IMG/VR virus record: IMGVR_UViG_3300030616_000001
Location: 30,959 to 94,958 of that record
Length of the DNA: 64,000 nt
Reading direction: 5' to 3' (one strand)
Source of the DNA: a virus
A program made the translations under genes and the position numbers. The notes beneath the pieces were generated by a model. That model made no database searches and had not been told where the DNA came from. It saw nothing but the letters and a program-made list of their open reading frames with translations. Positions 5,917 to 62,370 of this stretch are shown here, piece by piece; position 1 is the stretch's first letter, and the number at the start of each line of letters is the position of its first letter.

Positions 5917-7035
5917 CTACGCGGGTGCGCCTGTCGCGTCTACCCAACCGGCGCCGGCCCACCAGATAGGCATGCCGAGTGTCGTGTCGAAATACTGCTT
6001 GCCGGTGTCTGTCGCTCCCAGGGCACCGGGCCTGTCGCCCGTGACGCCGTAACCCAGGTGCATCGACACCGCGCCCTTGTCCACGTACTTCGTCTCCTTG
6101 GTGGCGGGGTCGCGTGCCAGGATGTGTGTCAGGACGTCGTCCTGGGCCGGGTCGTCCCAGATGTTGAGGTTGCGCTGGTACACCTTGTCGGGGTCGGTGA
6201 TCGTGACGCCGTTCAGTCCGATGGCCACCGACCTGTCGGCGGTCGCTTCCATCACCACCGTCCGGCCGCCGATGATCTGCGCCTCGGTGGCGCCGGCCTT
6301 GATCTCGTGGTTGAGGCCACCCCAGATCCCGCACCGTGTCGCCGCCGCGCCGGTCTGGGTCGCACCGTAGGACCCGTTGACCGTGGAGAAGTTGTACGAA
6401 CCCTGCCCGCGTGCCTGGAGGTAGCGGATCGTGGCGCCGCTCCAGTATCCGTTGCCGATCGCGACGGCCGTGGCGGCGGTCGCCTTGCAGAATCCGCCGA
6501 TCGCCACCGCGCTCCAGTACGTCGCCTCACACTCCATGCCGATGGCGAGCGCGTACCCCTCGTTGGCCTTGGACTTGTAGCCGAGGGCGGTGGCTCCCCA
6601 CCCCTTGGCCTCGTTCTCCTCGCCTCGGGTCATCGCGTAGGATCCAGACGCTTCGGACTGGCCGGCCAACGCGGCCGCGGCGTACCCCGACACGTCGTTG
6701 AGGAATCCGGCCGCGAACGAGGACGGCCCAAGGGTGGCGCCTGGATCCCGTGGCGGGTATGCCGGGCCGTACGCGTCGATGCTCGAGATGTCGAACGCCC
6801 CGTGGACCGTTCCGAGTCCCGCGATCAGGTCGAGCGCGTTGAGTGCGCCGATGTCGATGTCCAGTGGCATGGACATGACCGCCGAACTGCCCACGTCCAG
6901 GACGCTCTGGAGATCCTGCATGATCCCGCCGGCGTTCACGAGGTCCACAAGCTCGTTGATCTTCTCCACCACGGGATGGTCCATCCCGTTGAGGATCCCT
7001 TGGATGTCGTCACTGGTGAGTTTCTCCGCTGTCAT
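5917..7035 (-). CDS. Fibre protein with YadA/hep-Hag-like repeats, in the head module
   Basis: 372 aa. The N-terminus (about 8-35) carries LTSDDIQGIL and INELVD, shared with the beta-helix fibre at 61171-62370, so both probably attach by the same anchor. Residues about 125-200 contain short repeats such as GYALAIGMECEA and TAVAIGNGYWSGA, typical of trimeric adhesin head (hep_Hag) repeats. The C-terminus has QYFDTTLGMPIWW and GWVDATG, a common fibre end module. It lies between portal and minor head genes, so a head fibre is possible. Confidence 0.75.
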   Translation of the reverse strand: MTAEKLTSDDIQGILNGMDHPVVEKINELVDLVNAGGIMQDLQSVLDVGSSAVMSMPLDIDIGALNALDLIAGLGTVHGAFDISSIDAYGPAYPPRDPGATLGPSSFAAGFLNDVSGYAAAALAGQSEASGSYAMTRGEENEAKGWGATALGYKSKANEGYALAIGMECEATYWSAVAIGGFCKATAATAVAIGNGYWSGATIRYLQARGQGSYNFSTVNGSYGATQTGAAATRCGIWGGLNHEIKAGATEAQIIGGRTVVMEATADRSVAIGLNGVTITDPDKVYQRNLNIWDDPAQDDVLTHILARDPATKETKYVDKGAVSMHLGYGVTGDRPGALGATDTGKQYFDTTLGMPIWWAGAGWVDATGAPA

Positions 7036-10080: not shown

Positions 10081-10660
10081 CGTCCCCCTCCAGTTCCTTG
10101 ACCCGTCCCTGCCACCACCGCCGCAGACAGCCGCGGCACTTGGTCTTGCCGAAGTCCTTGGGGTGGTGACGGCACTTCGTCTCCCTGTCCACGTGCGTCC
10201 CTGTGCCTGGTTCTGCCCGTTGGAAGTGGTCACGTAGGGTTCCGGTCGGGACCAGGACGCGGACAGGCGGCAGGTCCCCGTCTCGGACCACGCACGGCAC
10301 CAGGAGTTCCATGTGGTCGGGGCCGCCAGTGAACAGGTCCGGTCGGATCTCCACCGCCTCCTCCCACACCTCGTCGCACTCCTCGATGTCCTCGAGGGCG
10401 CGTTCGAGCTCGGCGTCGTCCACGTCCACCTCGGTGCCCCCGGGAAGGCCCAGGCGCAGACCCAGGACCCGCTCCCACTGGTCGTCGTTGACCGCGGCGA
10501 TCACGGTGTCGTTCAGGGTAACGAACGCCTTGCCCGCGAGGGCGCGGTATGGGTGCTGTGCAATCTCGGTGGTCACGGTCACGTCTCCGTTGTCGTAGCG
10601 GCTGTACTCCGCGCCGGTTTCCACATCGCGCATGGTCGTGGATTTAGAACGGGTACTCAT
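10067..10660 (-). CDS. Hypothetical acidic protein with C-terminal Cys/His cluster
   Basis: 197 aa from an ATG preceded by GAGGACGAGC, preferred over an upstream in-frame start at 10675. The middle is acidic (AELERALEDIEECDEVWEE) and the C-terminus has CRHHPKDFGKTKCRGC, a likely zinc site. It overlaps the end of TerL by 17 nt. Function unknown. Confidence 0.6.
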   Translation of the reverse strand: MSTRSKSTTMRDVETGAEYSRYDNGDVTVTTEIAQHPYRALAGKAFVTLNDTVIAAVNDDQWERVLGLRLGLPGGTEVDVDDAELERALEDIEECDEVWEEAVEIRPDLFTGGPDHMELLVPCVVRDGDLPPVRVLVPTGTLRDHFQRAEPGTGTHVDRETKCRHHPKDFGKTKCRGCLRRWWQGRVKELEGDDDQA

Positions 10661-12233
10661 GCTCGTCCTCGTCACCGATGTGGATCTCCATTACATCTTC
10701 CCCCCCGTCGGCGTCCACGTCAAGGAAGTGCGTCCGTGCAGCACCGACCAGCTGCGAAAAGGCGTCCACCATGTCGTCGTGCTTGCCGAACGGGAACTCG
10801 ATCAGTTCGTCCACGAGGCTGCCGCGGCTGCCGTCGAACAGGTCGCCGTTCGGGTCCAGGTGGGCCGAGAACACCACCTTGCCCTTTTCCAGCAACGGAG
10901 TGGCGCCGAGGAGGCGCATCTGCTTGCTGATCTTGGGCTTGGTGACCTTGATGTGGCCCTCCATCTCGGGGTGTTCGTTAATGACCCACTCGTCCACGGT
11001 GGACAGGCCGATCTTCTCGATCAGGACCAGCCACGGATCGTATGTCTGCGCCTCGGCGTGGATCACGTCGGCCAGGGTCTTGACCGACATCCGCTGGTGC
11101 CAGGCGTCCACGATGTACAGGACCCCGCGCTCCTGGTCGATCGCGCCGACGCAGCACCCAGTGTAGTCCTGCTGCTTGCTGGTCTTGGACCGTGGGTTGG
11201 GCGTGCCGGCGGGGTCGTAGCTGGTGAAGAACACCAACCGATCCTGCTCCACCAACTCGGCGAACCGTTGGTCCTGGCGCAGGTCGCTGAACTCGAACCA
11301 GTCCGGTCGGATCAGCGCGGACTCTATGTCGATCGCCTGGTTGCGGAAGGCCCGGTTGAACTCGATGCTCTGGATCTCGTCGAACCGCATCCGCAGCGCG
11401 GCCTCACTCCACTTGTCCGGCCAGATCGCGCCGAAGTTGGCGTCGATGTCGTACCGCAGCACCTTGTACGTGGTGCCGCCCATGATCTCGTGGGACAGGT
11501 CCCCGGGGTGCCACAACGTGCAGATGTACCAGACGCGGCTGTCCGGCTCGAGGAGGTTGGTCCAGTCCGCCTTCCACGCCTGCTTGATCTGCTCGCGGAG
11601 GGCCGGGAAGGTGAGGGCGTTGCGGCGGTCCACCACGTCGTCGGCGATCAGCAGGTCGGCGCGGCCGCCCGTCGCCGTGGAGGTGATGCCCAGTGCCTCC
11701 ACCGACGCGTCCCTGTGTCTCGCGGATCGCATCAGGACCAGACGGTGCGCGTTCCATGGCGCGTCAGGGTTCGGCCGTAGGTCGGGGAACACCTCCCGGA
11801 CACGCGGGTTCGTGGTGATGTGCTGGTCGATCTCGAACAGGCGTTCCTTGGCCCGCCCGTCGCTCGCGCACACCACCTTGGTCCGCAGGTTCGGGTTGTT
11901 GCCCAGTTCCCAGATCACGCGGCCCACCACGTTGCTGGTCTTGGCGTGGTCACGAGGCGCGATCACCATGACCCGCTGATACCGATCCCAGGCCTTATGC
12001 CACTCGTCGTGGAACCACTGCTGGGCGTAGGGAAGGCGGCTCGACTCGTCCAGGAACGCATACTCCATGAACGCCGACGCCGACTTGCGAGCGAGGGCGA
12101 CGTGGTGGTTGCGAATCGCCACGGCACGCTTGACCAGGCGCTCCCGGGACGGTGGTCGGATGAACTTGTCCGCGACCAGCCGCGGGAGGTGGCCCACCGG
12201 AGGGCGGAAGTCCTTGTGGATCGCGCCGTCCAC
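10644..12233 (-). CDS. terL: Terminase large subunit
   Basis: 529 aa. A Walker A-like APRDHAKTS (about 91) and Walker B LLIADDVV (about 197) mark the packaging ATPase. SYDPAG (about 340) and KHDDMVDA (about 488) give the RNase H-fold nuclease acids. The enzyme cuts concatemers and pumps DNA into the prohead. It starts with GTG four bases after the ParB-like stop, with only a weak AAGAAG site, so coupling to that gene is likely. Unusually, a preQ0 cluster separates it from the TerS candidate. Confidence 0.92.
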   Translation of the reverse strand: MDGAIHKDFRPPVGHLPRLVADKFIRPPSRERLVKRAVAIRNHHVALARKSASAFMEYAFLDESSRLPYAQQWFHDEWHKAWDRYQRVMVIAPRDHAKTSNVVGRVIWELGNNPNLRTKVVCASDGRAKERLFEIDQHITTNPRVREVFPDLRPNPDAPWNAHRLVLMRSARHRDASVEALGITSTATGGRADLLIADDVVDRRNALTFPALREQIKQAWKADWTNLLEPDSRVWYICTLWHPGDLSHEIMGGTTYKVLRYDIDANFGAIWPDKWSEAALRMRFDEIQSIEFNRAFRNQAIDIESALIRPDWFEFSDLRQDQRFAELVEQDRLVFFTSYDPAGTPNPRSKTSKQQDYTGCCVGAIDQERGVLYIVDAWHQRMSVKTLADVIHAEAQTYDPWLVLIEKIGLSTVDEWVINEHPEMEGHIKVTKPKISKQMRLLGATPLLEKGKVVFSAHLDPNGDLFDGSRGSLVDELIEFPFGKHDDMVDAFSQLVGAARTHFLDVDADGGEDVMEIHIGDEDEHEYPF

Positions 12234-12234
12234 G

Positions 12235-12831
12235 CTACTTCTTCTTGCCGCTCACCTGGAACTTGTGGCCGCACTCGGGACACGTCGCCTCCACGGTGAT
12301 CGTCACGTTGGACTTCGCGTCCTTCTTCTCCTGGAGGGCCTTCAGCTGCTCGTCGTTGGCCTTCTTGAACGCGTTCCAGTCGAAGTCGACCATCTGGGAG
12401 AACCCCTCCAGGGTTTCCCGGTCGAACGGCATCGTGGTGTTGAGGTCGGCCACGTTGAACTCGGCGCCGCTGCCGCTGGTCATCTCCTTGATCAGGACCG
12501 CCAGCTTGGCGTCGTCGCGCTTGAACTTCGTCTCGTTCGTCTCGATGGCGATCCGCCACGCCTGGGAGTCGGTGATCGGGCCAAAGTTGAAGCACACCGC
12601 TTTCTTGATCCCCAGGTGGTTGAACGCGGCGAGGCGGTGGTTCCCGTTGATCACCTCGAAGAACCCCGTGTCCAACTCGCGCACTAGGATGTTCTCCACC
12701 TGACCGTTGCGCTTGATGTTGGCGATCAGCTTCTCGGCCTGGTCCGGGTCCTCCACCTTGTAGTTCCAATCGGCGCCTACGAGCTTGCCCACGGGCAACT
12801 CGATCCATCGCGGGTCATTGAGCTTGGCCAT
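12235..12831 (-). CDS. ParB/Srx-fold protein with C-terminal zinc ribbon
   Basis: 198 aa. Residues about 10-110 match the ParB N-terminal domain: a KLVGADWNY start, then NGQVENILVREL and VINGNHRLAAFNHLGI, the NG-HR nucleotide-binding motif. The C-terminus has CPECGHKF, half a zinc ribbon. No partner ParA is present. Such single ParB-like proteins in phages may be nucleases, NTPases or regulators. It overlaps dpdA by 17 nt and precedes terL, so a tie to DNA modification or packaging is possible. Confidence 0.78.
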   Translation of the reverse strand: MAKLNDPRWIELPVGKLVGADWNYKVEDPDQAEKLIANIKRNGQVENILVRELDTGFFEVINGNHRLAAFNHLGIKKAVCFNFGPITDSQAWRIAIETNETKFKRDDAKLAVLIKEMTSGSGAEFNVADLNTTMPFDRETLEGFSQMVDFDWNAFKKANDEQLKALQEKKDAKSNVTITVEATCPECGHKFQVSGKKK

Positions 12832-13678
12832 CGCGCATCTCCTGTTGCGCCGTGTCGGCGCGTGTCTGGTCGTTCCACTCGATCCCGCGCTCGCGCCACA
12901 TCGACGTGACGGACTCCTGGAGGCGGTGTCGTTTCATCAGCCACCGCGTGAACCGCACCTTGCACTTCTCGGCGCCAGCCAGGTCCTCGCGTTGTTCAAC
13001 TTGGGCGGCGAGCACGGCCTCGACGGTGTTGAGTCCCTTCTCGGCCAGGTCCCGCAGCTTGTAGGTGCGCCCGTCCTGCATGTGCCACGTCTTGTTGCCC
13101 GCCTGGAGGGATCCGGCCGACGAGTCCGCGGAGTAGAACGGGTAGCGGCGCAGGATCTTCTCGCTGCCCACGCCGAACATATGGATCTTGCGGGTGTCCC
13201 GGTACTTGGCCAGGACGCGGGCGTATAGGTCGTCGAGCCAGATGATCTTCGCCGCGTCGCTCTTGCCCACCACGCCGCCCAGGCAGAAGAACTCGTACCG
13301 CTCGGCCAGTTCCTCGAGCACCGCGATCGGCTCCCCGAAGTGGTAGGTGGGCAACGGCGCGAACCCCGCCTCCTCCATGACCCGCTGGTTCTCCGCGCTG
13401 GCCACCGGGTCGCCGATCACGTCCAGCCCGGCGTACACGTCGATCAGGTGGGACCGGTCGGCGATGAACTTCATGTACTCGTCGATGTCGATCTCGATGC
13501 CCAGGGTGTTGGCGCTGTGGGCGCCGCTGTCCAGGAAGAAGTGGAACCTGTCGTCGAGCAGGTCCACGGTGGGCAGGAACCGCTGGGCGTAGACGTAGCT
13601 GATCAGGACGTTGGGATACAGCGTCTCGATCACCGCCTCGAGATCCTGGCGCTTGATCACGACCTCGAACACCCTCAT
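12815..13678 (-). CDS. dpdA: DpdA-like DNA 7-deazaguanine transglycosylase
   Basis: 287 aa, TGT-fold. LDSGAHS (about 52) and GLDVIGD (about 84) match the active-site regions of the family; LGGVVG and HMFGVG match later barrel strands, and YSADSSAG follows. The length and the lack of the usual tRNA-TGT zinc Cys set favour the phage DpdA type. The enzyme exchanges guanine in DNA for a 7-deazaguanine base, here probably preQ0 since the cluster ends at QueC. The start overlaps the queE stop (ATGA); another in-frame ATG lies at 13690. No sign of frameshift. Confidence 0.85.
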   Translation of the reverse strand: MRVFEVVIKRQDLEAVIETLYPNVLISYVYAQRFLPTVDLLDDRFHFFLDSGAHSANTLGIEIDIDEYMKFIADRSHLIDVYAGLDVIGDPVASAENQRVMEEAGFAPLPTYHFGEPIAVLEELAERYEFFCLGGVVGKSDAAKIIWLDDLYARVLAKYRDTRKIHMFGVGSEKILRRYPFYSADSSAGSLQAGNKTWHMQDGRTYKLRDLAEKGLNTVEAVLAAQVEQREDLAGAEKCKVRFTRWLMKRHRLQESVTSMWRERGIEWNDQTRADTAQQEMRDGQAQ

Positions 13679-14265
13679 GACAGCCCCCATGCCTTGTGCG
13701 CCTGGACGTTGAGCCGCCAGGGAATCTCGCTGGTGTTCTCCTCGATCAGGTGGACCGCCCACCGCACGTTCTCGGGAACCAGGCGGTCCCCGTCGTACGC
13801 GGGGGACAGGAAGTAGTTGTCCGCGGCGATCAGTGGCACCGGGATCTTGCACCCGGCCTCCACGATGTACTTCAACTCGGCGACGGGGCGGCTGAAGTTC
13901 TCGATCAGGCGCGACGGGCCGACCTTGGGACTGACCACCACGTAGTCTATCCCCTCGGGCACGGCAAGCGTGCCGTTGGTTTCGATTGTGAGCATGGCGC
14001 CGAGCGCGTGGAGTGCGCGGACCAGAACGTTGTCGACCTGGAGCGCGGGTTCGCCGCCGCACAGGGACACAACGTCGGCCCCCAACTCCTCGACCTCGTC
14101 CAGGATCATCTGGAGGGACATCTCCCTGGCGTTGACGTGCTCCTTGGTGTCGCAGAACGGGCAGTTGAGGTTGCACCCGCTGAACCGCAGGAACGTGGTT
14201 GGGATGCCGATCCTGGCGCCCTCGCCCTGGATCGACCGCACGATCTCGTGGACCTTGTACAGCAT
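13675..14265 (-). CDS. queE: 7-carboxy-7-deazaguanine synthase QueE
   Basis: 196 aa radical SAM enzyme that turns carboxytetrahydropterin into 7-carboxy-7-deazaguanine. SIQGEG near the N-terminus and CNLNCPFCDT (about 33) give the family's atypical cysteine cluster; LCGGEPALQ and IETNGTL are the SAM-binding strands. Length is normal. It overlaps the queC stop by one base (TGATG), so the pair is translationally coupled. Confidence 0.93.
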   Translation of the reverse strand: MLYKVHEIVRSIQGEGARIGIPTTFLRFSGCNLNCPFCDTKEHVNAREMSLQMILDEVEELGADVVSLCGGEPALQVDNVLVRALHALGAMLTIETNGTLAVPEGIDYVVVSPKVGPSRLIENFSRPVAELKYIVEAGCKIPVPLIAADNYFLSPAYDGDRLVPENVRWAVHLIEENTSEIPWRLNVQAHKAWGLS

Positions 14266-15020
14266 CAGTTGTGCCCCCTCTCGTCCCGGTGCGCCCGGTC
14301 GTAGGCCAGTTGCTCCGGGGTCTTGACATTCTGCTCCCCGTCGTACCAGCCGCCGGCCCACAACGCTTCCTCCCGCTGGCGGCATGAGTCGCACTCGCCG
14401 CAGTGGGCGTCGCCGTCCAGGTAGCACGACCACGTGGCGTCGTAGTCCACGCCCAGCTTGCGCCCCAGGTCCACGATCCTTGCCTTGGGCCAGGTGGCGA
14501 ACGGAGCACAGATCCGCGGGTGGAACGACGGGTCGGTGCCCTCCCGGGCCGCACGCTCCATCGCCTCCACGAACTCGAGACGGTCGTCCCAGTAGTTGCC
14601 GCTGTCCAGGCCGTTGGCGCCGAGGTAGATGCTGCTGATCCCGTGGGCCTCGGCGAACCCGACCGCGTAGGCCAGGAAGATCCCGTTGCGGAACGGGACG
14701 TAGCTGGCCGGCGTGCCGCCCTCCTCGATCTGGCCGCGACTGCGCCCCTTCGGAAGCCCCTGGACCGCGCTGGTGTTGGCCTTCAACAGGCCGCACTCCG
14801 GGGCCATCCACCCCATGTCCACCCGCACGATCTTGGTGGTGGCGCCGTACTTCTGCGCGTTGTCCACGGCAACGTCGAGCTCACGCCGCAGCGTCTGTCC
14901 GTAGTCGAAGATCAGTGCGACGATCTCCTCCGGGTTGAGCAGGTGCATGTTCTGCATCCGCGCCAGGCACGTGGTACTGTCGATCCCGCCTGACAGTAGG
15001 ATCACCGCTCCTCGATTCAT
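14265..15020 (-). CDS. queC: 7-cyano-7-deazaguanine (preQ0) synthase QueC
   Basis: 251 aa. LLSGGIDSTTC (about 8-18) is the PP-loop that binds ATP. The C-terminal CGECDSCRQR with an upstream Cys forms the zinc site. It converts the carboxy precursor plus ammonia to preQ0. There is no amidotransferase (Gat) fusion as in phages that make an amidino base, so free preQ0 is the expected end product. It follows folE by three bases. Confidence 0.93.
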   Translation of the reverse strand: MNRGAVILLSGGIDSTTCLARMQNMHLLNPEEIVALIFDYGQTLRRELDVAVDNAQKYGATTKIVRVDMGWMAPECGLLKANTSAVQGLPKGRSRGQIEEGGTPASYVPFRNGIFLAYAVGFAEAHGISSIYLGANGLDSGNYWDDRLEFVEAMERAAREGTDPSFHPRICAPFATWPKARIVDLGRKLGVDYDATWSCYLDGDAHCGECDSCRQREEALWAGGWYDGEQNVKTPEQLAYDRAHRDERGHN

Positions 15021-15023
15021 CTC

Positions 15024-15602
15024 CTACCCCTCCCGGCCCGCGAAGGCCATGAACTCGGCCCTGGTGCGCGGGTCCTCGAGGAACCGTCCACGCAGGGCCG
15101 TTGTGGTCATCCATGCTTCCCGTTTCTCCACACCCCTCGCCACCATGCACAGGTGACGACCACGGACCAGCACGCCCACGCCCAGAGCACCTGCGGTGGA
15201 CTCCACTACGTCCGCGATCTGGTCGGTCATCCGCTCCTGGATCTGGAGGCGGCGGGCGTACACCTCGACGGCACGCGCCAGCTTGGACACCCCCACCACC
15301 TTGCCGTTCTTGTCCGGCAGGTAGGCGACATAGACGTGGCCGTAGAACGGCAGGATGTGGTGCTCGCACGTGGACCAGTATTCGATGGGACCGAGGCACA
15401 CCATCTGGTTGTAGCTGTCACTGGCGAACGCGGTCTGGAGGATCCCCTGGGGCTCCTTGTCGTAGCCGCCGAACAGGTGCTTCCAGGACTTGACCACGCG
15501 CTTCGGCGTGTCCTTCAACCCCTCCCGGTCCGGGTCCTCACCGATGTACTCCAGCATGGTCCGAACCGCGGCGAGCGCGTCTGCTTCTGTCGGCCTGGTC
15601 AT
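15024..15602 (-). CDS. folE: GTP cyclohydrolase I (FolE)
   Basis: 192 aa. [12 protein letters not shown] (about 80) and [11 protein letters not shown] (about 150) supply the zinc ligands and catalytic His/Cys set of FolE1; TPKRVVKSW and [10 protein letters not shown] are further signatures. It makes dihydroneopterin triphosphate from GTP, the first step to preQ0. Carrying its own copy frees the phage from host folate flux. The start overlaps queD (ATGA). Confidence 0.94.
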
Positions 15603-16087
15603 TGGATCGCCTCCTCGTAGTCCGCCTCCCACGTGGCGCACGACTTCTCCGTCTCCCACACGTCCACCCTGATCACGTCCGCGCCGACCACCGGGATCTC
15701 GGCCAGGCCCCGGGCGATCATCGACGCGAGCAGGGTGGCCATGTTCTCGGCGGTGGGCATGTTGATCATCACCACGACCCGCAGGTCCAGGTCCGCGGCA
15801 CGGAGCACCTCCAGGAGCGGATCCTGCTCCCACAGGATCACGGCGTGGTCCCACGGCACCGTGTCCGCGCCGCACCACTTCCCCTCGTCCAGGATCCCGC
15901 GCACCACCGTGGACAGGTCCTTGAAGTCGGCGACCATGCCGGTGGAGGGACCGACGCGGCGCAACTCGGCCCCCTCGAGATGGGCGACGACGCGGTAGCT
16001 GTGGCCGTGCAGGTTGCGGCATCCACCCTCGTGGAGTGGCAGTCGGTGTGCCGCCTCGAATTTGAATTCCTTGCTGATACTGTGCAT
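15599..16087 (-). CDS. queD: 6-carboxytetrahydropterin synthase QueD
   Basis: 162 aa. FEAAHRLP and CRNLHGHSY give the zinc histidines, and [12 protein letters not shown] and MPTAENMA are conserved in the 6-pyruvoyl-tetrahydropterin synthase fold. It converts the FolE product to 6-carboxytetrahydropterin. First gene of the five-gene preQ0/DpdA run; its start directly abuts the stop of the gene upstream. Confidence 0.93.
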
Positions 16088-16561
16088 CTAGTCCTCCACC
16101 TCGTCTGGTCCGTCGAACGCGACCGGGCCGACGTCATCGCCGCCGTCGAGCGGCAACTGTTCAAGATCCTCATGGGCCGCGCCGGTCAGGGCGAACTCCA
16201 CCAGCTGACCCGGGACCAGTGGGCCGCCGCACCCCTTGCACTCCTCACCAACGCGCTGTCCCGTGTTGGCCCGGAGTCCGCACTTCTGACACGTCACATC
16301 GTAGATGGCCGCGATGGCGCCGACGCCCGTCTTGTCCTGTACACCGAACAGGCCGTTGAGCAAGCCCAACGTGCCCAGCAGGTACAGGGTGCGCCCGTCG
16401 TCCGCCTTGTGGAACAGCACCTGGACCGTGGGGTGGTGAGCCACCGGCGGCTCCACCGCGATCCGCGTGTTGACCAGGACCCCCATGCCGTCCCGGTCAC
16501 GCTCCACCAAGTCGTTGAGCAGTTCGATCACCTCGTGCACACTGACATTCGCCTTGATCAT
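16088..16561 (-). CDS. Hypothetical protein with zinc ribbon
   Basis: 157 aa with CQKCG and CKGCGG separated by about 14 residues, a compact zinc ribbon. The N-terminal half ([17 protein letters not shown]) is helical then beta-rich. Start chosen at 16561 after GGGAGAGG; the in-frame upstream extension overlaps another gene. Co-transcribed ahead of queD. Confidence 0.65.
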
Positions 16562-30665: not shown

Positions 30666-30996
30666 TGTCGGCCTCGCTGGCGCGGAGATAGAAGAACCCC
30701 TCGAGGCGCGGCTCGTTGGCCATCAGCATCCGCGAGTAGAACGGTTTGTGGTTGTTGTTGAGCTTGAACGGATCCGCGGAATCGGTGTCCATCGCACGGT
30801 GCCAGCGCAGAACCTCGAACAGGCCCGCGATCCCGTAGTGCTTGAACCCACGGTCCACGAGATCCAGGGCAAGGCGCCGCAGTTCCCGGTAGACCCACGG
30901 GTTGTCCCGGTGGAACTGGCGGAACGCCTTCCCCATGTCGGACTCGTCGTCCCGTGTCGCCGCGTCGAGCTCGGGCAGCGTCATCTGGTCATCCAT
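30658..30996 (-). CDS. Conserved phage protein
   Basis: 112 aa. FRQFHRDNPWVYRELRRLAL, LFEVLRWHRAM and FKLNNNHKPFYSRMLM form a pattern I recognise from many phage genomes as a conserved protein without known function. Next to the methyltransferase and ssb. Confidence 0.7.
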   Translation of the reverse strand: MDDQMTLPELDAATRDDESDMGKAFRQFHRDNPWVYRELRRLALDLVDRGFKHYGIAGLFEVLRWHRAMDTDSADPFKLNNNHKPFYSRMLMANEPRLEGFFYLRASEADNG

Positions 30997-31669
30997 CGGC
31001 GTCCTCCTTCTCGATCCGCACTCGCGGTTTCGCCTCCTCCTCTGTCATGAGTGGCTTGTTGTCGATCCAGTGGATCCTGGTCTGGCCCTCCCACTTGCGG
31101 CGCATCTCGTCCAACGCCGCACCGACCCAGAAGATGAAGCAGTATTCCTGGGCCATGTCTGTCTTGCCGTCCCCGGTGAACGAGGGCCGGGCCGTGAGGA
31201 TCCACACCTCCGCCGGCGGCCGCTCCAGGTACAACTTGCTGCGATCCTGGGTGCCCAGGAACGCCATCTTGGTGAGGAACGCCGCCGCACCGTAGGGGCA
31301 CAGAAGTTCCAGGGATCGCCGGATCACCGACTCGCCGATGCGGAACGGGGGGTTCGTTGCGATCACGTCGAACCGCGGCTGGTCCCACCACACCTCGTCG
31401 AACTCGGCGGCCGATGTCTCCCTGTAGAGGTGATCGGGATCCTGATCCCGCCACAGAGGCGGGTCCACGGGCCGCACGTCGTAGCCGTGTGGACGCAGGC
31501 CCATCTCACGACCGGCCGACGCGAAAGGCGCCGTGTCGCCGCAGCACGGTTCCAAGATCCTGGCCAGATGGTTGTCGCTGATCGCCGCCAACTCGATGGC
31601 GTGCCGTACCGCCCACCTGGCCAGGCCAGTGTGGGTGCCGTAGTTGTCGAAGTCTCGTCGCTTGCCCAT
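30989..31669 (-). CDS. DNA adenine methyltransferase
   Basis: 226 aa. LEPCCGDTAPFA is the AdoMet loop and IATNPPFRIG (about 107) is the catalytic NPPF motif, in the gamma (FXGXG to NPPF) order. It would methylate adenine in phage DNA, a second modification beside the predicted 7-deazaguanine. An RNA or protein target cannot be ruled out. Lies just after ssb. Confidence 0.82.
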   Translation of the reverse strand: MGKRRDFDNYGTHTGLARWAVRHAIELAAISDNHLARILEPCCGDTAPFASAGREMGLRPHGYDVRPVDPPLWRDQDPDHLYRETSAAEFDEVWWDQPRFDVIATNPPFRIGESVIRRSLELLCPYGAAAFLTKMAFLGTQDRSKLYLERPPAEVWILTARPSFTGDGKTDMAQEYCFIFWVGAALDEMRRKWEGQTRIHWIDNKPLMTEEEAKPRVRIEKEDADG

Positions 31670-35628: not shown

Positions 35629-36471
35629 TCACCTCCAATCCGCGGGATACTGCCGCGGCCAGTCGCGATCCGGGTCGTGCCGGATCAGGTTGTCCTTGAT
35701 GAAGCACGGCATCTTCTCGCGGGCGCACCGATCCGCGATCCGCGCCGCCGCCCCTGCGATGAACTGTCCCAGGGTTTTGTCCTGGGCCTTGCCGTCCTCC
35801 CGTTCCCACCCCACGATCCGATCGAGCTTCTTGGAACCAGTGCCAGTCTGGGCGCCGACGATGACCCAGTCCAGCCCGCGCAGGAAGAAGTCCTCGTCGA
35901 AGTCGGGGTCCATAAGCGGCTCCACGCTGACACCGAGCAACGGCCCACCCCGGGAGATGTACACCCGCTCCTGGAGTTCGCGGATCCTGGACGCGTCGTC
36001 GTTGGACGTGACGCTGACCCCAAGACACACGTTGCTCGGCCACGGTCCCTGGAGCAGGTTGTCGGGTCGCTTGGTCAACAGGACGAACCGGTGACGCGGC
36101 AGCTTCGCCGCGAACGCGACCAGCATCTCCTGGACCCACGTGTCCGCCGCCTCCTGGTGAGCGCCGCCGCGGCCGGTCCCGTCCAGGTACAGCCACGGCC
36201 CCGGGTTGGCCGGTTCGGACATGGAACCGAGGAACACGATCCTGGGCTTGGTGGCGCGGTCGAGGCGGTCGAGCTCGCGCAGCATGATGTGGTGGTGGTA
36301 TGCCGGGTGGAACGGATCCCCAGTGCACTTCTCCACCTCGATGTACCTGGCCACGCCCCTACGCACGTTCGACGCCGCCGTCCCCCTCGCGTAGCAGAAC
36401 GAGCACTTGCCGCGGCAACCGGTGATGAAGTTCACCGTCTCATCGCACCATTCGATCTTCGTCTTGGCCAT
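35629..36471 (-). CDS. DUF5131 / phage Gp37-Gp68 family protein
   Basis: 280 aa. KIEWCDETVNFITGC and CSFCYAR form a CxxxC-like iron-sulphur motif of the Gp37/Gp68 (DUF5131) family, related to radical SAM enzymes. VFLGSMSEP, FVLLTKRP and GVSVEPLMDP are further family blocks, and VIVGAQTG is a nucleotide-binding-like loop. The reaction is unknown. Common in phages and integrative elements. Overlaps the upstream HNH gene by 32 nt. Confidence 0.8.
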   Translation of the reverse strand: MAKTKIEWCDETVNFITGCRGKCSFCYARGTAASNVRRGVARYIEVEKCTGDPFHPAYHHHIMLRELDRLDRATKPRIVFLGSMSEPANPGPWLYLDGTGRGGAHQEAADTWVQEMLVAFAAKLPRHRFVLLTKRPDNLLQGPWPSNVCLGVSVTSNDDASRIRELQERVYISRGGPLLGVSVEPLMDPDFDEDFFLRGLDWVIVGAQTGTGSKKLDRIVGWEREDGKAQDKTLGQFIAGAAARIADRCAREKMPCFIKDNLIRHDPDRDWPRQYPADWR

Positions 36472-61170: not shown

Positions 61171-62370
61171 CTACGGAACCACGATACCGGTGGAGTCGAT
61201 CCACGCGCCACCGTTCCAAGTTAGCCACGCCCCTGGTCCCGGACCACCACCGGGCAGCAGATCCTGCGCCCAGAACCGGTACTGGACCGGCGGGTTGGCG
61301 GGCCGCGCATCGGGACCACCGACACCGGTCGTGCCCTGGCCCTGCTGTGCCGTGCCCAGGATGAACGAGGCGCCGTTCATGATCCAGTTGCCCATCGGCG
61401 GTGCGCCTGGGTTGTCCAGGATCAGGTTGCCCATCGCCAGGACGGTGCCGGCGTCGGCCTCGACAGCGTTACCTGCGAATCCGCCGAACGCGAACAGGTT
61501 GGCGCACATGGCGAAGGCCCCGTTCTTGAGGCGCAGTCCGTTGGTCGCGGACAGGGTGGCGCCGGTGAACACCGCGAACGCGCCATCGGCCTCGAGCGCC
61601 CACGCCGTGGGACTCGTCTCGCTCGCGTTGATCCCCACCGACGCGCCGAACATGCCGAACGCGCCGTTAAGCAGCTTGACCCCGCGCTCCGAGTCGCCGC
61701 CGCCGCCGCCCAGGAACCAGATGAATCCGGCCCCGTCGGCGACAACGCCCTCGCTTCCCGATCCCGCGTCCACCCCGGCGTAGATCATGATCAGGGACGC
61801 GCCATGAGGGTTCGGCTCGACGGAGACGGCACGTGCCACGCCCGTGGCCTTGCACTCCATGTTGAACAGGAACGTCTCGTAGGTGCCGGCGGCGAGGCCG
61901 TCGTCGACGTGGCGGACAGCGGAGTCGGTCGGCACCGCGCTGTTCGTCTCCACCCACAACCCGTTCACGAACGAGTCGAACGGCGGCACGGTCAAGGTGT
62001 GGCCCGAGCTCGAGCGGATCCTGGTCACGCCGGCAGGGCCAAACCGCGCCACATCGACGAGGCGTACGTGCCGCTTCAACACCACGTTCTCCACGTACAG
62101 GCCCGGTGCCACCTCGATGATGTACGGCTTGGTCGGGGAGGCGTCGGTGATGCCGTCGATCGCGGCCTGGATCTGCTTGAACGGACGCCCTGCCGATCCG
62201 TCTGGTGTGTACGAGTCCGTCCGTAGTCCATCGACGTGTACGATTGTCCCCGCGAGGGACATCAGATTGGACTCTGCGATCAGCTCGTTGATCCTGGTCG
62301 CAACGGGGTCGTCGTACCCGCTGAGGATGCCCTGGATGTCGTCCGCGGCGAGTCGTTTGATCTGCGTCAT
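61171..62370 (-). CDS. Beta-helix tail fibre/tailspike
   Basis: 399 aa. Anchor region AADDIQGILSGYDDP and INELIAESN shared with the fibre at 5917-7035. IQAAIDGITD, then YIIEVAPGLYVENVVLK begins a right-handed beta-helix like pectate-lyase folds; repeating N-G-A-F-x-M-F/C turns continue to about 320. The C-terminal WNGGAWIDSTG is a fibre end module. Likely receptor or polysaccharide binding; no catalytic site recognised. Confidence 0.78.
   Translation of the reverse strand: MTQIKRLAADDIQGILSGYDDPVATRINELIAESNLMSLAGTIVHVDGLRTDSYTPDGSAGRPFKQIQAAIDGITDASPTKPYIIEVAPGLYVENVVLKRHVRLVDVARFGPAGVTRIRSSSGHTLTVPPFDSFVNGLWVETNSAVPTDSAVRHVDDGLAAGTYETFLFNMECKATGVARAVSVEPNPHGASLIMIYAGVDAGSGSEGVVADGAGFIWFLGGGGGDSERGVKLLNGAFGMFGASVGINASETSPTAWALEADGAFAVFTGATLSATNGLRLKNGAFAMCANLFAFGGFAGNAVEADAGTVLAMGNLILDNPGAPPMGNWIMNGASFILGTAQQGQGTTGVGGPDARPANPPVQYRFWAQDLLPGGGPGPGAWLTWNGGAWIDSTGIVVP

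Follow-up and report, generated by a model that had tools for sequence, protein, structure and literature searches.

The 64,000-nt stretch of phage DNA analysed here (the window, in whose numbering all coordinates are given) covers positions 30,959–94,958 of the 94,958-bp IMG/VR contig IMGVR_UViG_3300030616_000001, and at 12815–16087 it carries a cassette of five overlapping or touching genes, all on the minus strand, that in the order of transcription encode QueD, FolE, QueC, QueE and DpdA. The phage probably makes preQ0 with these enzymes and swaps part of the guanines of its DNA for it, with dPreQ0 as the end product. This reading is built on the genes and their motifs, the fold of the DpdA model, an excess of synonymous changes in the cassette, and the lack of a match to the later-step families searched for on the contig. 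Exchange of guanine for preQ0 in phage DNA is a known phage defence against restriction enzymes.

The preQ0 and DpdA cassette

Pfam, PHROGs and PDB matches agreed with the motifs in identifying all four enzymes of preQ0 synthesis. QueD (6-carboxytetrahydropterin synthase, 162 aa; 15599–16087) matched PF01242 PTPS (5.8e-26) and phrog_2389 (1.1e-28), and carries CRNLHGH, which is of the QueD type (CxxxHGH), together with WDHA and PTAEN; against the NCBIfam QueD model it scored 2.6e-20, under the model cut-off. FolE (GTP cyclohydrolase I, 192 aa; 15024–15602) matched PF01227 GTP_cyclohydroI (7e-66), passed the NCBIfam cut-off of TIGR00063, and matched PDB 1wm9 at 6.8e-49 with CEHH and HLCM aligned, two motifs to which we ascribe a zinc role. 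QueC (preQ0 synthase, 251 aa, with no Gat domain; 14265–15020) matched PF06508 (1.8e-49) and PDB 2pg3 (5.1e-17), contains SGGIDS and C-x7-CxxCxxC, and reached 142 bits against TIGR00364, slightly short of the 150.3 cut-off. The radical SAM enzyme QueE (7-carboxy-7-deazaguanine synthase, 196 aa; 13675–14265) matched phrog_2076 (9.2e-32), PDB 4njg (4.3e-20) and Pfam Radical_SAM (9.6e-15), bears CNLNCPFC (Cx3CxxC) and GGEP, and matched five NCBIfam QueE models, all under cut-off. We take the motifs of the four enzymes to be functional signatures of their families. In a PADLOC search at E 0.1, QueC matched the PADLOC QueC model (7.2e-21), QueE matched two viperin models (5e-7 and 1e-6), FolE and the methyltransferase at 30989–31669 matched weakly, and DpdA and QueD had no match.

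The five genes are tightly joined, with 4-nt ATGA overlaps at the QueD/FolE and QueE/DpdA junctions, a 1-nt overlap between QueC and QueE, and a 3-nt gap between FolE and QueC. The same phage is represented by two more contigs (L112 and L113), which are 93–99% identical across the cassette genes; no internal stop was found in the five genes, the adjoining ParB-like gene or TerL of either contig. Between the window and L112, 67 synonymous and 32 other changes were counted in DpdA, QueE, FolE, QueD and ParB, QueC being omitted for its gapped alignment. The third-codon-position G+C content of the five genes (0.89–0.93) matches that of called genes longer than 300 nt (mean 0.89, standard deviation 0.04), so that composition gives no sign of a recent import; the gene calls came from a purpose-built codon model, in which QueC and FolE came out shortened. 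All five DpdA-pathway genes were present in the fetched stretch of 50 of 80 IMG/VR DpdA loci (the best 80 of 461). The initial annotation had listed five touching genes for QueD, FolE, QueC, QueE and DpdA, with their key motifs and with all four preQ0 enzymes among them, and coordinates, families and motifs bear it out; it overlooked the adjoining ParB-like gene at 12235–12831.

The last gene of the cassette, dpdA (DNA preQ0/guanine transglycosylase, 287 aa; 12815–13678, with an alternative start possible 12 nt upstream, at 13690), matched phrog_887 at 1.1e-41, and the best phage matches of its product are mostly annotated as queuine transferase, DpdA or 7-deazaguanosine inserting enzyme. In an alignment of the window DpdA with those of CAjan, 9g, Godines, Finch, Bipper and Mufasa8, D50 (in DSGA), H166 and D185 are invariant, and H166 aligns with H196 of phage 9g; identity in the alignment is 33% to CAjan DpdA and 27% to Godines DpdA. 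Used by itself as a query, the DpdA sequence had no PDB match at E 1. That the protein is instead a tRNA-guanine transglycosylase (TGT), with the cassette supplying queuosine for tRNA, is highly improbable. The PHROGs family is named queuine tRNA-ribosyltransferase, and the AlphaFold model (predicted local distance difference test, pLDDT, 81.6) has the TGT fold, fitting tRNA TGT 2pwu (Z 15.7, root-mean-square deviation (rmsd) 3.5, 232 residues) as well as the solved structure of the bacterial DpdA 7ui4 (Z 15.5, rmsd 4.6, 237 residues); because the two score alike, the fold assigns the superfamily only. The tRNA TGTs have a CxCxxC zinc site. No such motif was found in the 287-aa protein, which has two cysteines in all, and PF01702, the TGT family, was not matched anywhere on the contig (94,958 bp; control matched in 14 of 14 genomes), on which QueF was likewise without a match and no second phrog_887 protein was found. 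The named relatives include CAjan DpdA, demonstrated to act on DNA. The tRNA TGT identity was rejected on the missing PF01702 match and zinc motif, and the choice between DpdA and tRNA TGT, which the initial annotation had set as a check, falls on DpdA by the annotations of its best phage matches as well. Membership of DpdA2, described as undetected with 9g DpdA and lacking a histidine at 9g position 196 (Hutinet et al., 2019; PMC6884629), was also ruled out, since the window protein retrieves 9g DpdA at 2e-25 and has the histidine.

Predicted base and protection

By analogy with characterised relatives, FolE would convert GTP to dihydroneopterin triphosphate, from which QueD would form 6-carboxytetrahydropterin, QueE 7-carboxy-7-deazaguanine (CDG) and QueC preQ0, and DpdA would exchange bases in DNA in the manner of TGT, using the two aspartates D50 and D185, so that preQ0 takes the place of guanine. 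Enzymes that would act after preQ0 were searched for across the contig, and no match was obtained for QueF (PF14489; control matched in 8 of 14 genomes), the ArcS domain DUF5591 (PF17884; 3 of 14), the Gat domain GATase_6 (PF13522; 14 of 14) or the DpdC family. The content of FolE, QueD, QueE, QueC and DpdA is that of group 2 of Hutinet et al. (2019), shared with Rosebush and CAjan, and the measurements reported there for these two phages, which have exactly this gene set, are dPreQ0 at ~28% of G in Rosebush and ~32% in CAjan, with no dPreQ0 in CAjan without dpdA (PMC6884629). Because the gene set is that of Rosebush and CAjan and no later-step family is on the contig, dPreQ0 is the best prediction. 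The initial annotation had likewise predicted dPreQ0, having seen no QueF, ArcS or Gat-QueC partner; the empty family searches and the 251-aa QueC without Gat confirm the second point, and the comparison with Rosebush and CAjan lends support to the first.

Several points weigh against this prediction. QueD, QueE and QueC all fall short of curated NCBIfam cut-offs, which fits divergent phage versions of these enzymes. The fold search ties DpdA with tRNA TGT and cannot separate them, and a 57-sequence DpdA profile searched against the PDB reached 7ui4 at E 0.25 (not significant) and one unrelated chain at 0.86; both aspartate motifs line up in the alignment to 7ui4, the first within a piece scoring below zero. 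The phage is uncultured and known from sequence alone, and a later enzyme lying outside the contig could be missed because the contig has no completeness figure. Gene content, moreover, is not always a guide to which base is made or how much of it: Streptococcus phage Dp-1, of the dG+ group, was reported with dPreQ1 in ~1.7% of G, and Vibrio phage nt-1, which has DpdA2 and ArcS and for which dG+ was predicted, with <0.2% of G changed, mostly to dPreQ0 at ~0.1% (PMC6884629).

The case of nt-1, and that of Pantoea phage MED16, reported with dADG at ~0.13% of G and restriction visibly unaffected, would also suit a pathway that is real and ends in another base (dADG, dG+ or dPreQ1), or a replacement too sparse to matter. 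The converter would then be a host enzyme, a phage enzyme off the contig, for which the missing completeness figure leaves room, or an enzyme of unknown family. We consider this outcome unlikely in view of the dPreQ0 levels of Rosebush and CAjan and of the absence of later-step families from the contig, and prefer dPreQ0 as the end product.

By the same analogy, the replacement of guanine should be partial, perhaps bound to a motif; a later paper cites modification of CAjan DNA at GA and GGC sites (PMC8306585). The dPreQ0 would then protect the DNA against some host restriction enzymes, not all. Rosebush DNA was reported to resist BamHI, EcoRV and NdeI and to behave with BstXI as 9g DNA does (partial), and to be cut fully by HaeIII, MluI and PciI (PMC6884629). 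The resistance to many restriction enzymes foreseen by the initial annotation is thus to be narrowed, as protection from some enzymes would be expected and its extent would depend on the enzyme.

The ParB-like gene and the position before terL

The gene next to dpdA (12235–12831, minus strand) overlaps it by 17 nt, stops one base before terL, and encodes a 198-aa ParB/sulfiredoxin-fold NTPase-like protein (phrog_723, 9.1e-21), a candidate DpdA partner and putative member of the system. Its model (pLDDT 90.1) fitted ParB 7bnr with Z 15.0 and rmsd 1.7 over 93 residues, and sulfiredoxin 6ky4 with Z 10.7 and rmsd 3.0 over 87 residues. In PADLOC it matched one candidate model and, at 3.4e-7, a type II methyltransferase model over the first ~120 model positions. 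The protein is 21% identical to Godines ParB in the alignment, and its nucleotide loop is NGNHR; xGxHR occurs in 16 of 23 phage ParB rows, the window included. The ParB proteins of Bipper, Godines and Finch have GNHT in place of GNHR, by which their nucleotide loop may be altered. Of the features of DpdB, both the ParB/sulfiredoxin NTPase fold and the genetic linkage to dpdA are present.

The putative role that we consider for this protein is that of a nucleoside triphosphate-dependent partner that would bring DpdA to DNA, an added inference to which we give nearly an even chance. The idea is not new, since ParB was proposed as a possible DpdB homologue in mycobacteriophage CRB2 (PMC6392294). 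A 2025 paper notes genes with a ParBc domain on contigs that encode a different base-modifying enzyme of phages, and calls their function unknown (PMC12783734).

Linkage between the two genes was counted with a ParB profile of five seeds (window, Bipper, Godines, Finch and Mufasa8), which may miss divergent ParB. It matched 15 of the 80 DpdA loci, two of them copies of the window phage, and all 15 matches lie directly beside dpdA; among isolates, a gene annotated as ParB-like stands directly before dpdA in Godines and Finch and directly after it in Mufasa8. In a DpdA tree of 65 sequences, kept from 98 with a DpdA match after short and near-duplicate sequences were dropped, one side holds CAjan and 9g (46 rows) and the other the window (19 rows). 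ParB adjoins dpdA in 17 of the 19 rows on the window side and in none of the 40 rows on the CAjan/9g side that have enough flank (at least 700 nt on both sides). Four rows (L095, L096, L099 and L102) had entered through a ParB query, and when these and the five seeds, nine rows in all, are left out, ten rows remain on the window side, of which 8 are ParB-adjacent (L018 has too little flank and L075 no ParB). Fisher's test of 8/9 against 0/40 gave 2e-8, for rows that are not independent and for a dividing branch (95/93) chosen after the labels were seen. The window row is long-branched and of unsure placement, and the bootstrap had not settled. On these counts, ParB is a partner candidate for one of the DpdA lineages.

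The ParB-like gene could equally belong to a terminase or packaging module unrelated to DpdA, the adjacency arising from a shared location at terL; this, too, we rate just short of an even chance. A sister phage described below has ParB directly before TerL and no cassette, 8 of the 14 TerL relatives with a ParB match (n = 27 loci in all) have no DpdA match, and in CAjan DpdA is active with no ParB gene beside its own. Against such a module, in the 12-kb stretches of Finch and Mufasa8 ParB adjoins dpdA and no terminase is annotated, and the 15 ParB matches among the 80 DpdA loci all adjoin dpdA, while a TerL profile, which was built from three seeds and will miss divergent TerL, matched only 4 of the 80. 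Mapped onto the DpdA tree, adjacency to ParB takes 3 changes, compared with 15.2 on average when the labels are shuffled. The partner role in its turn is weakened by the sister phage, which keeps ParB without dpdA, and by CAjan and 9g, whose DpdA has no ParB neighbour. A strict, exclusive partnership of ParB with DpdA was rejected because ParB is also found without DpdA.

The sister phage, IMGVR_UViG_3300029258_003380 (L094, also listed as L118 and G001), is a 97,966-bp contig collinear with the window and identical to it at 81% in the portal protein, 80% in TerL, 69% in ParB and 57% in the gene next upstream of the cassette (16088–16561). The five-gene cassette is absent from the collinear stretch, and neither phrog_887 nor QueC was matched anywhere in the record, against one match of each on the window contig. 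Seven of the eight plus-strand open reading frames of at least 90 aa in this place were scanned, the eighth overlapping another in a different frame; six had no Pfam match and one had two weak zinc-type matches under cut-off. The G+C content is 50% in the L094 stretch versus 66%. In a ParB tree L094 is the sister of the window within a five-member clade (99/97). The remaining members, L095, L096 and L099, entered through the ParB query and have dpdA beside ParB; the absence of the cassette from L094 is therefore more simply read as a loss.

A TerL search returned 27 loci, among them L112 and L113, L118 (which is L094) and L135 (which is L095). Both ParB and DpdA were matched in 6, ParB only in 8, DpdA only in 1 and neither in 12, of which 7 have <2.7 kb before TerL. 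Several loci carry other gene sets before terL. L124 (2522–9977) has QueD, a phosphoribosyltransferase (PF00156), QueE, a Vut_1 transporter (PF02592), FolE, a DpdA-like gene (phrog_887, 1.3e-20) and two ParB genes, as well as phrog_17812; L128 (43–4417), cut at its left end, is the same from QueE onward, the domains having been checked in L124. L131 (581–6789) has QueD, QueE, FolE, phrog_17812, a weak QueE-profile gene, a glycosyltransferase-like gene, a DpdA-like gene and two ParB genes. In L127 (8395–9988), ParB and TerL come after QueD and QueE; FolE and DpdA had no match in this stretch, nor had QueC or phrog_887 in the 17.7-kb record. A search for QueC was negative in the records of L124 (26.2 kb), L128 (13.6 kb), L131 (18.3 kb) or L127 (17.7 kb), which are probably fragments (control matched in 12 of 14 genomes). 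Cassettes without QueC may leave carboxy- or plain 7-deazaguanine, and the end product of the L124 and L128 cassettes may be dCDG or 7-deaza-dG. This reading draws in part on a remark of Hutinet et al. (2019) on Bipper. At the same place before terL, L121 (5270–9968) and L125 (3493–9891) carry radical SAM genes, phrog_842 glucosyltransferase-family genes and ParB; the radical SAM protein of L125 has a weak B12-binding match, and neither record (55 kb and 95 kb) has a phrog_887 match. These two loci perhaps encode a different hypermodification.

The position before terL has the look of a place where DNA-modification gene sets are exchanged. It might be an exchange slot for base-modification cassettes around a resident ParB-like NTPase, although we think this unlikely. 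The chemistry would be swapped between phages while ParB stays to load or target the modifying enzyme on DNA. The slot would be occupied by preQ0 synthesis with DpdA in the window; by a divergent DpdA in the cassettes of L124, L128 and L131, where QueC was not seen; by radical SAM genes together with glycosyltransferase-family genes in L121 and L125; and by nothing recognised in L094. If so, one of the two DpdA lineages seen would depend on ParB. The anchor on one flank of the slot, outside the pathway, is TerL (terminase large subunit, 529 aa; 10644–12233, minus strand; phrog_38, 3.9e-72). The slot and the ParB link are hypotheses and are the main interest of the locus, which lends itself to natural comparisons with a collinear sister that lacks the cassette, with relatives that had no QueC match, and between ParB-linked and ParB-free DpdA lineages. 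With these, what brings DpdA to DNA and which guanines are exchanged become testable.

The phage lineage and comparison with known systems

Phage families found across the contig include terminase, portal, tail sheath, tape measure and baseplate wedge, as well as DnaB helicase, SSB, RecT, RecE and endolysin; judging from the tail sheath and baseplate wedge families, the window phage has a contractile tail. Its TerL is <60% identical to all 1,172 matched phage records (24.9% over 85% in the top-ranked match), a comparison from which very near records may be absent, and by this measure the lineage is new to the isolates of the collection searched. A TerL-alignment profile search of genome contigs found no relative. 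Outside the cassette, a DNA methyltransferase-like protein (30989–31669, minus strand; phrog_799, 2e-24; no Pfam match at 0.01) is possibly a second DNA modification of this phage, and a DUF5131 protein (35629–36471, minus strand) matched PF07505 (1.5e-22) and, weakly, radical SAM. Two minus-strand genes ~55 kb apart, at 5917–7035 and 61171–62370, have a similar start (..DDIQGIL..); the product of the latter matched the start of the L094 counterpart of the former over 28 residues only (2.8e-6).

The preQ0/DpdA system of the window is of a kind already known, in a phage lineage that is new to the collections searched, and it adds a divergent contractile-tailed phage to the known dPreQ0 gene sets. 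Rosebushvirus, compared through Godines (NC_042050), comes close: Godines also has FolE, QueD, QueE, QueC and DpdA with a ParB-like gene beside dpdA, in a block that ends at terL. The order differs (ParB-DpdA-QueC-QueD-QueE-FolE-TerL), and the window phage is distinguished from Rosebushvirus by its tail sheath and baseplate wedge families, which point to the contractile tail. Like the window, Rosebushvirus has no amidotransferase, and Rosebush DNA is reported to hold dPreQ0 (PMC6884629). Escherichia phage CAjan (Seuratvirus) has the same five enzymes, and its dPreQ0 was measured and was gone on dpdA deletion; in contrast to the window, its genes are interspersed, next to the DNA polymerase genes, it has a putative preQ0 transporter and no ParB neighbour, and its DpdA lies on the opposite side of the DpdA tree. 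Enterobacteria phage 9g shares FolE, QueD, QueE and a DpdA with the conserved histidine and aspartates, whereas its QueC gene of 1,416 nt (471 aa) encodes a Gat-QueC fusion that leads to dG+, as against the 251-aa QueC of the window without Gat. The bacterial Dpd system (DpdA, DpdB and DpdC) differs from the window in DpdC, a family with no match on the window contig, and resembles it in the TGT fold of DpdA and in DpdB, which is described as a ParB-like ATPase (PMC12839542).

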